Assembly: GCA_016218045.1 (NCBI GenBank) | Contig: JACRFB010000059.1 | Coordinates: 62,001-126,000 of the forward strand | DNA length: 64,000 nt | Direction of reading: 5' to 3' | From: Ignavibacteriota bacterium | GTDB lineage: Bacteria > Bacteroidota > Ignavibacteria > SZUA-365 | Shown: in pieces, positions 22,036-25,610 of the stretch | Numbering within the stretch: position 1 is the stretch's first letter | Layout of the letters: each line of letters begins with the position of its first letter | Notes under the pieces: model-generated | Database searches by the model: none | What the model saw: the letters and a program-made list of their open reading frames with translations, nothing else | Told to the model about the DNA's origin: nothing | Position numbers and translations under genes: made by a program

Positions 22036-22722
22036 TCAAACGTTCGCCTGTCGTTCACCAAAAAGGGCTGTTCCGAGCCGGACGATTGTGGCGCCTTCTT
22101 CGATCGCAACCTCGTAGTCGCCCGACATGCCCATGGACAGTTGATTGATGCGCGGGTCGTTGAAACGCGCGCGGGTCTCGTCACACAAAGTCCGCAACAG
22201 ACGGAACGACGGTCGCACCTGTTCCGCATCGTCAGCGGGAGCAGCGACGGTCATGAAGCCGCGGAATACGAGGCCTTCGGATCCGTGCAGTAAGTCGGCA
22301 AGCGCATACGCTTCGGTGGGATCTATCCCGTCCTTCGACGCCTCGCCGCTGGTGTTCACCTCCGCGAGCACCGAGACCGGCGCGGGCAGGCAGCGCGCCT
22401 GCCGGCGCAGTTCCTCCGCGAGGCGAAGGGAATCCACCGAATGGATCCATGCGCAATGCGGAAGTATCTGCTTCACTTTGTTCCTCTGAAGGTGGCCGAT
22501 AAAATGGAACTCGTGCGGTCGCAGTGCGGGACGTTTCGCGAGGTATTCCTGCACCCTGTTTTCGCCGATCGCCGTGATGCCGGCGGCCAGCGCTGCGTTG
22601 ATGTGCTCGACGCTCTGGGTTTTTGTGACCGCAAGCAGCAGCACCTCGCCCGGGAGGCGACCGGCGCGTCCGCATGCAGCGTTCACACGGAGGAGAATAT
22701 TCGCGAGCTGCTGCGACACCAT
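22036..22722 (-). CDS. yggS: YggS/PROSC family PLP-binding protein
   Basis: A 228-aa PLP homeostasis protein of alanine-racemase-like barrel fold. The PLP lysine lies in LLLAVTKTQSVEHI; further family motifs are GENRVQEYLAKRP and FHFIGHLQRNKVKQIL, and the phosphate site is near MGMSGDYEVAIEEGATIVRLGTALFG. It binds PLP without known catalysis and buffers free cofactor. It heads the long minus-strand cluster and corresponds to ylmE in Firmicutes. Confidence 0.95.
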   Translation of the reverse strand: MVSQQLANILLRVNAACGRAGRLPGEVLLLAVTKTQSVEHINAALAAGITAIGENRVQEYLAKRPALRPHEFHFIGHLQRNKVKQILPHCAWIHSVDSLRLAEELRRQARCLPAPVSVLAEVNTSGEASKDGIDPTEAYALADLLHGSEGLVFRGFMTVAAPADDAEQVRPSFRLLRTLCDETRARFNDPRINQLSMGMSGDYEVAIEEGATIVRLGTALFGERQANV

Positions 22723-23037
22723 AAGACAGTAAATATATCCGCGGTCGGCCTCAATTCCAAGGTCGGAGCGGCTCGCGGGACGGCGGGATTGCTTTTATTC
22801 GGAGTGTTTTTGATTTTTTCATAAATGCCCGTACATTAATAGCTGTTATTGTCTCTGTGCAGTGCCGGTGCGCTCCCGGTGTGCAGCCGCGCTGGCCGCG
22901 GAGCGACAATCCCTCCACTCCACGCCCTCCTTTCAAGCACCGCCCACCGGATTGGCGGCATAGGTTTGAATCCAGGACGAGCCGATCGTGTGCCGCACTT
23001 CTGAAACTATAGGATTCCGAAAGGAGCTTCGCCACCG
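22723..23037. other. 315-base gap with a promoter and long structured leader of the PfkB-like gene
   Basis: No gene is supported here. A promoter-like pair lies at 22810-22839. The following 190-base leader has nested complementarities: ATTGTC (22848-22853) with GACAAT (22915-22920), an inner CCGCG/CGCGG stem (22887-22901), and GGATT (22949-22953) with AATCC (22969-22973). An AAGGAG at 23021-23026 lies 11 bases before the start. The minus-strand frame covering this gap has no family signature. The leader could be a cis-regulatory RNA or simply GC-rich. Confidence 0.55.
22810..22839 (+). promoter_or_regulatory. Candidate promoter of the PfkB-like gene
   Basis: TTG (22810-22812), 19 bases, then TACATTAA (22832-22839): a good fit to the Bacteroidota -33/-7 layout in an AT-rich patch. 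It implies a leader of about 190 bases. Confidence 0.5.
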
Positions 23038-24003
23038 ATGAGCGTTCAATCATTCCTCCCTCCCGTTCAGTACGATGTCACTGCCGTGGGCGACGCCTTC
23101 GTGGAGCTCCGCGCGCACGACGCGTCACTGCCGGAGGCTGCCTCGTTCGAGCGGCACATTGCCGGTTCCGCCGCACATGTGGCCATTTACGCGGCGATGC
23201 TGGGCGGACGCAGCGCGTGTGTCGCGTCTGTCGGTGCCGACGCGCTGGGCACGTTCGTGCAAAACACGTTGCGCCAGTACAAGGTCAATGTCAGCGGCCT
23301 GCAGTTCTCGCGCGAACAGCCCACCAGCCTGCTCTTCAGTGCGCGCGCAGGTCGCGCCATACAGACAACATATTACAGGCTGTCCGACTGGCAATTACAT
23401 AACACGAAAGAGCACGTGCTTCTTGCGCAGGGATCGAAGTTCGTGCACGGTTCGGGATTTACTCTGTGGAAACATCCCGGCCGGCACAGCGTCTTCGAAA
23501 TCCTGCGCCTGGCAAAAAAATCAGCGTGCACCACGGTTCTGCAGCCGTATTACGAGCCGGCGCTGTGGCGCGATCATGATGACGCCCTCGCGACGATTAA
23601 AAAAACGCTGCAGTTCGCGGATATCGCCACACCGACCATCGACGACGCCGAACATCTTTTCGGCCGTTCGACGCGCGAGGACTATCTGAAGAAGTACCAC
23701 GATCTCGGCGTTGACACGGTTATCCTCACCATGGGCAAGGACGGCTGTCTCATTTCAGAAGACGGCGAGGTCAGTGCCGTGCCGGCGATCGACGCACCGG
23801 TGGTGGATCCGTCGGGTGTGCACGAGGCCTGGCACGCCGGGCTGTACATCGCAATGTCGGAAGGGTACGGACTTGCGCAGTCCACACAATTCGCGAACGC
23901 GGTCGCCGCGTGTGTACTCCGTCAGAACGGGCCCCTGGTTGTGCTTCCCAGCGTGGATCGTATAGCGGAAGAATTTCTCGGCCGTTCCTTCGACGCGCTC
24001 TGA
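23038..24003 (+). CDS. PfkB/ribokinase-fold protein with degenerate catalytic motif
   Basis: A 321-aa protein with the PfkB fold: N-terminal VGDAFVELRAHD, AGSAAHVAIYAAMLGGRSACVASVG, and C-terminal VDTVILTMGKDGCLIS. The catalytic signature that is normally D-T-x-G-A-G-D-A-F reads DPSGVHEAW at residues 257-265: the anion-hole Gly-Ala-Gly is lost and the catalytic Asp is Glu (E263). The N-terminal G-G-x-x-x-N motif reads AGSAAH. Active sugar or nucleoside kinases keep these residues, so this is probably a binding or regulatory protein rather than a kinase. ATG 23038 is preceded by AAGGAG. It converges on aat with 7 bases between stops. Confidence 0.85.
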   Translation: MSVQSFLPPVQYDVTAVGDAFVELRAHDASLPEAASFERHIAGSAAHVAIYAAMLGGRSACVASVGADALGTFVQNTLRQYKVNVSGLQFSREQPTSLLFSARAGRAIQTTYYRLSDWQLHNTKEHVLLAQGSKFVHGSGFTLWKHPGRHSVFEILRLAKKSACTTVLQPYYEPALWRDHDDALATIKKTLQFADIATPTIDDAEHLFGRSTREDYLKKYHDLGVDTVILTMGKDGCLISEDGEVSAVPAIDAPVVDPSGVHEAWHAGLYIAMSEGYGLAQSTQFANAVAACVLRQNGPLVVLPSVDRIAEEFLGRSFDAL

Positions 24004-24010
24004 GAACCAT

Positions 24011-24586
24011 TCACGGGTAGAATGTGACGGGCAGCCCGCGCGCTTCGCGCAGGCGCTCAAGATATTCCTCGCGCGGGATCTCCCGTCCGCCGAATCTCTC
24101 GAGGTGCGGCGTTGTCCATTGTGTGTCGAGCAAAATGAACCCGCGCGCCCGCAGCCGCGCGACCAAAGCGACAAGGGCCGCCTTCGAGGCGTCGCGCACA
24201 CGTGTAAACATTGACTCGCCGAAAAACGCCCCGCCGATGGCCACACCGTACAGCCCTCCGGCCAGCGCCCCGTCCGTCCACGCCTCCACCGAGTGTGCAA
24301 AACCGCGTGTGTGCAGGTTGCGATAAACGACTTCGATCTCGCGCGTGATCCACGTTTCCTCGCGCGCGGCGCACGCGCGAATCACCTCGTCGAAGGCGGT
24401 GTTCACGCGTATGTCGAAGCGGCCGCTTCGCAGGATCCGCGCAAGCGTCTTAGGCACATGGAAAGTGTCGAGGTCCAGTATGCCGCGCGGGTCGGGGCTG
24501 TAGAGCGATATCGAACCGTCTTCCTCTCCCATCGGAAAGATGCCCTCGCTGTACCACGCAAGAAGTGTCGCGGCGGGAATGCGCAC
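24011..24586 (-). CDS. aat: Leucyl/phenylalanyl-tRNA--protein transferase
   Basis: A 191-aa transferase that adds Leu or Phe to N-terminal Lys/Arg, marking proteins for ClpS/ClpAP (N-end rule). Motifs: LAWYSEGIFPMGEEDGSISLYSPDPRGIL, WITREIEVVYRNLHTRGFAHSVEAW, LAGGLYGVAIGGAFFGESMF and ILLDTQWTTPHLERFGG. The length is somewhat shorter than E. coli Aat (234 aa). It lies 9 bases after the XerD-like gene on the same strand, so the two are likely cotranscribed. Confidence 0.95.
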   Translation of the reverse strand: MRIPAATLLAWYSEGIFPMGEEDGSISLYSPDPRGILDLDTFHVPKTLARILRSGRFDIRVNTAFDEVIRACAAREETWITREIEVVYRNLHTRGFAHSVEAWTDGALAGGLYGVAIGGAFFGESMFTRVRDASKAALVALVARLRARGFILLDTQWTTPHLERFGGREIPREEYLERLREARGLPVTFYP

Positions 24587-24595
24587 GGTCGCTCC

Positions 24596-25480
24596 TCAGA
24601 AGGGAAAATCTTCGGTGCGGATCTTCTCGAGCAGACGGATGTGGTTCTTGATCGAGGTGACACCGAGGGCGCGCTTCACCGCGTCGTGCGTTTCGCCGTG
24701 GATCAGCATCTGCAGGGCGAAGGTGTTGCGAAGCATCATCGGAGTCACGTTGGGCACGCCGGCGTCGCGGCCCACGCGCTTCACGATGGCGTCCACCGCC
24801 TGCTGCGACAGGGGTTCGCCGTCGCGATGCAGGAAAAGCGGTTCCGCCCTGCGTCTGCGCGACAGCACCGCGGTGCCGCGTCGCTTCAGGTACTGACGCA
24901 GCGCCGCCTGCGTGCGGGTGCTCAACTGCGCAAAACGCACGGTCTTGCGGCGCTGGCCGCGGATAAAAAGGCGGCCGACACGCGGCGTCAGGTGCAGATC
25001 GCCGATGGTGAGGCCGCAGATCTCGCCGCTGCGCAGGCCCGCGTGCAGAAGAAGCAGGATGATCGCCGTCTCCATGGGACGCGCGGACTGTTCCGATTGA
25101 CGGACGAGCAGCAGCGCGTCCTTTCGCGCGAGCACGGTCGGGATCTGCGGCTCCGACGGCAGGCCAAGCACGGTCACCACGGGATTTCCCACGGCCCAGC
25201 CGCTCTCGATCGAGAACTCGAAGAATTGCCGCAGCGAGGTGATGCGCCGGTTCACCGAGGCCAGCGACGACTTGCGCGTCAGGAGAAAACCGCGAAAGTC
25301 GATCACGTCGCCGCGTGTGATGTCGGCGATCGTGAATCCGTCACCGGCGGTGTTCACGTACCACTTGAAGAATTGCTGGATGTCGTTCGCGTACGAACGC
25401 ACCGTGTTCGGATTCTTCCCTTTCTTCTCCAGGTGTCGCTGGAAAAGCTGTATGGTTTTCTGTATGTCCGCGGCCGTCAT
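24596..25480 (-). CDS. Tyrosine-recombinase-fold protein (XerC/D-like) lacking the catalytic tyrosine
   Basis: A 294-aa protein, the usual XerC/D length; ATG 25480 is preferred over an upstream frame extension that is purely basic. The N-terminal SAM-like core-binding domain reads IQLFQRHLEKKGKNPNTVRSY. The catalytic domain keeps Arg I (HAGLRSGEICGL), the beta-hairpin Lys (QRRKTVRF) and Arg II (MMLRNTFALQML). The His of HxLRH is Met, LGH is LGV, and the expected IYTH segment is IRLL. No tyrosine exists in the last 80 or so residues, and no frameshift nearby restores one. It should bind DNA but not cleave it. The true XerC/XerD are presumably elsewhere. Confidence 0.88.
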   Translation of the reverse strand: MTAADIQKTIQLFQRHLEKKGKNPNTVRSYANDIQQFFKWYVNTAGDGFTIADITRGDVIDFRGFLLTRKSSLASVNRRITSLRQFFEFSIESGWAVGNPVVTVLGLPSEPQIPTVLARKDALLLVRQSEQSARPMETAIILLLLHAGLRSGEICGLTIGDLHLTPRVGRLFIRGQRRKTVRFAQLSTRTQAALRQYLKRRGTAVLSRRRRAEPLFLHRDGEPLSQQAVDAIVKRVGRDAGVPNVTPMMLRNTFALQMLIHGETHDAVKRALGVTSIKNHIRLLEKIRTEDFPF

Positions 25481-25610
25481 TGCGATCCGTGTTGCAATCG
25501 TTCCAAGTCTCAAAATGTACTTGGCGCGGAACCGAAAACAAAATCGACGGCTGCGGCGAAATCGCGCCCGCCGCGGCACACGACCGACACACGTGCAATG
25601 CCTGCACCGC

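Follow-up and report, generated by a model that had tools for sequence, protein, structure and literature searches.

PfkBx, a PfkB-fold protein with an altered catalytic site and a probable pseudokinase of one order of Ignavibacteria

The window analysed here is a stretch of 64,000 nucleotides from an Ignavibacteriota bacterium (contig JACRFB010000059.1, positions 62,001 to 126,000). It harbors a gene of the PfkB family, here termed PfkBx, which is flanked by yggS and aat and followed by a gene for a Xer-like protein (Table 1). The Xer-like gene adjoins gyrA, an arrangement kept across two families.

Table 1. Features of the PfkBx locus, in window coordinates
Feature	Coordinates	Strand	Basis or remarks
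yggS (PLP homeostasis protein)	22036..22722	-	TIGR00044, 183 bits; conserved divergent neighbor
Intergenic leader, 315 bp	22723..23037	+	Between divergent yggS and PfkBx
PfkBx, gene for a probable PfkB-fold pseudokinase	23038..24003	+	321 aa; PF00294, AlphaFold2 model, orthologs in 15/16 genomes
Degenerate substrate motif AGSAAH, residues 42-47	23161..23178	+	GGxxxN in active kinases
Gln169	23542..23544	+	Asp of DxNxR in active relatives
Glycine loop GKDG, residues 233-236	23734..23745	+	Kept; belongs to the nucleotide site of active kinases
Degenerate anion-hole and base motif DPSGVHEAW, residues 257-265	23806..23832	+	DTxGAGDAF in active kinases
aat (leucyl/phenylalanyl-tRNA transferase)	24011..24586	-	TIGR00667, 190 bits, over cut-off; conserved convergent neighbor, synteny
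Xer-like tyrosine-recombinase homolog lacking the catalytic His, His and Tyr	24596..25579	-	Pfam Phage_integrase

PfkBx belongs to the PfkB/ribokinase family by descent and by fold. The Pfam model PF00294 covers residues 14-299 with 143.5 bits (cut-off 25.8), all 15 orthologs match the same model, and PfkBx is the top PfkB match within its own genome. The AlphaFold2 model, which is of moderate quality (mean pLDDT 66.6, pTM 0.74; pLDDT below 50 in the lid region, residues 90-130, and a poor N-terminus), matches ribokinase-family chains with Z scores of 24-27 and Foldseek E values of about 1e-15, the lid being of low confidence. The alignment behind the model held six sequences; no PfkBx relative was found in the viral contigs searched, and the alignment therefore stayed shallow. 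The Pfam match and the predicted ribokinase-like fold bear out the sequence-only reading that the protein keeps the overall PfkB order. None of the NCBIfam function models reaches its cut-off on PfkBx, including TIGR04382 (5-dehydro-2-deoxygluconokinase), which scores 145.9 bits against an equivalog cut-off of 300.

PfkBx is a sharply bounded, single-copy feature of its order, as follows from the searches. When 61 genomes were searched at the protein level, each of the 11 other genomes searched from the same family (here f1; 60-68% identity) gave a strong match, as did three genomes from a second family within the order (f3; 45-46% identity), and the named records of relatives fall in Ignavibacteria. 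A profile search across the order gave a single copy in 15 of the 16 genomes searched, among them all 11 with a completeness of at least 90%; the sole genome without PfkBx is 74% complete. Among 294 genomes of the class, the next best match scored 126 bits versus 539-633 bits for true members, and no further copy was found at E 1e-45 in 395 genomes of the phylum. Intact orthologs elsewhere were considered and rejected, as none occurs in the 294 class or 395 phylum genomes. The plasmid matches listed were PfkB relatives below 32% identity, which carried a sugar-kinase annotation wherever they were annotated.

The order of yggS, PfkBx and aat-xer-gyrA is retained in 10 of the 11 same-family relatives, and yggS adjoins PfkBx in the same proportion. 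In one genome (G004, L044:8029-8991), PfkBx lies at another locus and is convergent with fmt-def. The motif of this genome (GADE) diverges most among those of f1, and no other genome of the family consists of a single contig. In f3 (read in L053:7710-10633; also L052 and L054), archease-rtcB is located between yggS and PfkBx. The rtcB stop codon there overlaps the PfkBx start codon (ATGA), with the same overlap sequence upstream in all three genomes. If PfkBx is read as a regulatory subunit, its translational coupling in f3 to RtcB, an RNA ligase, would be the first hint of a partner. In f1, archease-rtcB is located elsewhere, without PfkBx, so that the coupling is confined to one lineage and serves as a lead, not as evidence of partnership; RtcB as a fixed partner of PfkBx was rejected on this ground.

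The sequence-only reading also placed PfkBx next to another de-catalysed protein. The Xer-like protein does lack catalytic residues, but aat lies between its gene and PfkBx, so that it is two genes removed. Its Phage_integrase match ends at profile position 160 of 172, and the His of HxxR, a later His and the Tyr nucleophile are missing in 13 of 13 aligned orthologs, which retain Arg residues and a Lys. The catalytic roles of these residues are presumed from tyrosine recombinases in general. At least two other integrase-family genes in the genome match nearly the full Pfam domain. Judged from its residues, the Xer-like protein would be a second conserved pseudoenzyme, possibly one that binds DNA.

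A long structured leader had likewise been proposed upstream of PfkBx, and this proposal did not hold. The leader folds with a z score of -0.60, with 25 of 100 shuffled sequences folding at least as well; a search of the leader against Rfam gave no match; and the corresponding leaders range from 189 to 447 nt with little conservation across 10 relatives. A structured leader or riboswitch was rejected on these results. The relatives share an A+T-rich block (TTTTGAAA ... CATA-TTC) approximately 100 nt before the PfkBx start codon, with which the window did not align. The block in the relatives is perhaps a Bacteroidota-type promoter.

The altered catalytic site is the principal feature of PfkBx. 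The motif DPSGVHEAW replaces DTxGAGDAF exactly as the sequence-only reading had described, and AGSAAH stands in place of GGxxxN. HMMER aligns DPSGVHEAW straight onto DVTGAGDAF of the fructokinase 3hj6. For comparison, 113 other PfkB proteins from the class were sampled as background, including the four other PfkB paralogs of this genome, which are intact. The claim that the anion hole is altered is upheld at position 262, which is Gly in 113/113 sampled class PfkBs and in none of the 15 PfkBx orthologs (His 11, Asn 3, Asp 1), a difference much larger than chance would give. Position 47 is Asn in 99/116 sampled class PfkBs and Leu (10), Met (3) or His (2) in the orthologs, such that the N-terminal GG...N substrate motif of active PfkBs is absent from PfkBx. 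Position 169 is Asp in 106/116 sampled PfkBs and Gln (10), Tyr (3) or His (2) in the orthologs. Thus, no ortholog retains the glycine of the anion hole, the Asn of the substrate motif or the Asp of DxN. The missing Asn of GG...N is by itself not decisive, because some other class PfkBs with an intact GAGD also lack it.

Of the 13 positions with at least 80% fixation in the background PfkBs, six are changed in PfkBx (42, 47, 169, 200, 203 and 262). Each of these falls within a substrate or catalytic motif: 42 and 47 in GGxxxN, 169 in DxN, 200 and 203 in NxxE, and 262 in the anion hole. The background-fixed positions that are retained are glycines, D68 and D257. The change in NxxE (T200/D203) was rejected as proof of lost activity and is weak evidence, because fructokinase 3hj6, with an intact GAGD, shares the S/T-x-D-D variant and has Ser and Asp at these positions.

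Within the order, the alteration has become fixed. The C-terminal signature of active PfkBs, [GA]-x-G-D, is absent from PfkBx, and GxGD is found in 0 of 15 orthologs, the window copy reading GVHE. The motif in f1 is VDP[SA]GVH[DE]xWHA, with the exception of GADEAWHA in G004, and in f3 it is G[IV]NE[AV]FQA. An ortholog with an intact GAGD was sought and none was seen among the 15; a local mutation or sequencing error is therefore excluded. That PfkBx is a decaying gene or an assembly artifact is scarcely credible: such a reading would account for the departure of the motif from consensus and nothing else, and it is refuted by the orthologs, with full-length intact frames in 15 genomes, purifying selection, ribosome-binding sites and synteny.

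The catalytic base requires separate consideration. The sequence-only reading had the base Asp changed to Glu, which is true of the window copy but not of the group: position 263 is Asp in 113/113 sampled class PfkBs, whereas the PfkBx orthologs have Asp in 8 and Glu in 7, an acid being present in every copy. No Asp-to-Glu base mutant (D318E) was found in the literature searched. The glycine loop residues G233 and G236 are invariant in 15/15 orthologs, Gly260 and Asp257 are retained (with one Asp-to-Glu), and the lid pair Y113-R114 is invariant. These residues raise an alternative in which PfkBx is still a kinase, slow or acting on an unusual substrate, with acid 263 as the base, ATP bound by GxxG, and His, Asn or Asp at 262 standing in for glycine at some cost. 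The acid at 263 in all 15 copies and the retention of Gly260 and Asp257 count against a pseudoenzyme, since a wholly dead site would need none of them, and the kept G233 and G236, together with a Tyr-Arg pair that is also found in fructokinase 3hj6, favor a working site. However, a selected active site should fix both 262 and 263, and position 262 has no fixed identity, 263 flips between Asp and Glu with four changes on the tree, and the substrate Asn and DxN Asp are lost as well, with varying replacements. On balance, a retained kinase activity seems rather unlikely.

The pattern of constraint over the whole gene bears on the same question. On the ortholog tree, the base position changed four times, the substrate Asn position five times and the anion-hole position three times, against a mean of 3.5 per site, counts that take in three intact outgroup sequences. 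Thus, sites at which other PfkBs vary little or not at all behave as average sites in PfkBx. The gene itself is under strong purifying selection: dN/dS for same-family pairs is approximately 0.01-0.20, with dS near saturation in many pairs, and ortholog identity (60-68%) exceeds that of the adjoining yggS, aat and xer. Approximately 30 positions are invariant in PfkBx and rare in other PfkBs, and this points to selection for a new function. Among these residues, Y113-R114 are common to 3hj6, whereas W118, K145, H150 and K188-K189 are absent from it. As far as sequence evolution can indicate, relaxed catalytic positions in a constrained gene are the mark of a pseudoenzyme that has taken on a new role under selection, and the sequence-only proposal of a pseudokinase gains support from this.

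The newly fixed residues could instead reflect new chemistry gained on the old scaffold by way of H262, H266, H150 and acidic residues. The protein pseudokinases SelO and SidJ, which have different chemistry, have been named as precedents (PMC10211241), and the number of newly invariant residues fits such a gain, as does the block GVH[DE]xWHA, fixed in 11 of 12 members of f1. Against it, H262 is replaced by Asn and H266 by Gln in f3, and 262 is Asp in G004, so that no common new catalytic set is visible; the only invariant histidines of PfkBx are H150 and H221. This alternative is accordingly improbable.

To judge from its residues, PfkBx has probably ceased to be an enzyme and acts in binding or regulation instead. 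That it is not a canonical kinase is likely and is the firmest part of this interpretation. The explanation that best fits the whole, with a probability of approximately 0.6, is that PfkBx descends from a sugar kinase of the fructokinase/iolC-like PfkB branch and is a pseudoenzyme that retained the kinase fold, lost canonical phosphate transfer and would act by non-catalytic binding. If PfkBx is not a canonical kinase, a ligand-dependent regulator or scaffold is somewhat favored. With the fold, the glycine loop (G233/G236) and the lid residues Y113 and R114, PfkBx could still clamp a ligand, either sugar-like or a nucleotide. With the ligand bound and the lid closed, the protein would then signal to, or scaffold, a partner, the contact being made by newly fixed residues (for example W118, K145, H150 and K188-K189). 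Yeast Gal3p and plant FLN1/FLN2 would serve as working precedents for such a mechanism. A more specific proposal is that PfkBx serves a core information-processing complex (transcription, translation or RNA repair) as a ligand-gated subunit with a regulatory or scaffolding role, independently and in parallel to FLN1/FLN2. This proposal is speculative and on present evidence doubtful.

PfkB kinases are annotated automatically by fold, and PfkBx would be named a sugar kinase despite a catalytic site that is altered throughout the order. If confirmed, PfkBx would provide a PfkB pseudoenzyme from bacteria whose phylogenetic boundary is clear and whose intact relatives can be identified, which would open the step from kinase to non-kinase to study. 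It would also match the plant FLN proteins as an independent counterpart. No bacterial PfkB pseudokinase was named in the open-access literature searched, the coverage of which is incomplete.

The nearest solved relatives of PfkBx are the fructokinase 3hj6 from Halothermothrix orenii and an iolC-like kinase (2qcv). In a FastTree phylogeny, PfkBx forms one clade with a support of 1.0 and a long stem of 1.38 substitutions per site. The closest solved sequence is 3hj6, with a profile E value of 2.6e-59 over residues 11-312. PfkBx shares with 3hj6 and the iolC-like kinases (2qcv, TIGR04382) the domain order, the lid Tyr-Arg and the S/T-x-D-D variant of NxxE. Unlike PfkBx, which lacks all three, 3hj6 has intact GGSPAN, DPCYR and DVTGAGDAF motifs.

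Yeast Gal3p, a galactokinase-like sensor, is a sugar kinase without activity; it binds both ATP and sugar and passes a signal to a partner (PMC3409070). It is a working analogy for PfkBx from a different fold family, that of galactokinase. Plant FLN1 and FLN2 have the PfkB fold and no detectable kinase activity, and work within a larger complex (PMC5405513, PMC4080259, PMC3409070). The FLNs retain the G/ASGD motif (PMC9698557), and so the anion-hole Gly and the Asp remain in them, whereas PfkBx is without G/ASGD (GVHE; GVHD, GADE or G[IV]NE in orthologs). FLNs carry an N-terminal extension and insertions, whereas PfkBx is a stand-alone bacterial protein with a more degenerate anion hole. PfkBx is also nearer to active kinases than to FLNs, the best FLN match having an E value of 8e-11 versus 2.6e-59 for 3hj6. 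PfkB pseudoenzymes are thus already known from plants, and PfkBx, by its sequence, appears to be a separate bacterial lineage in which the loss of the motif is different and stronger.
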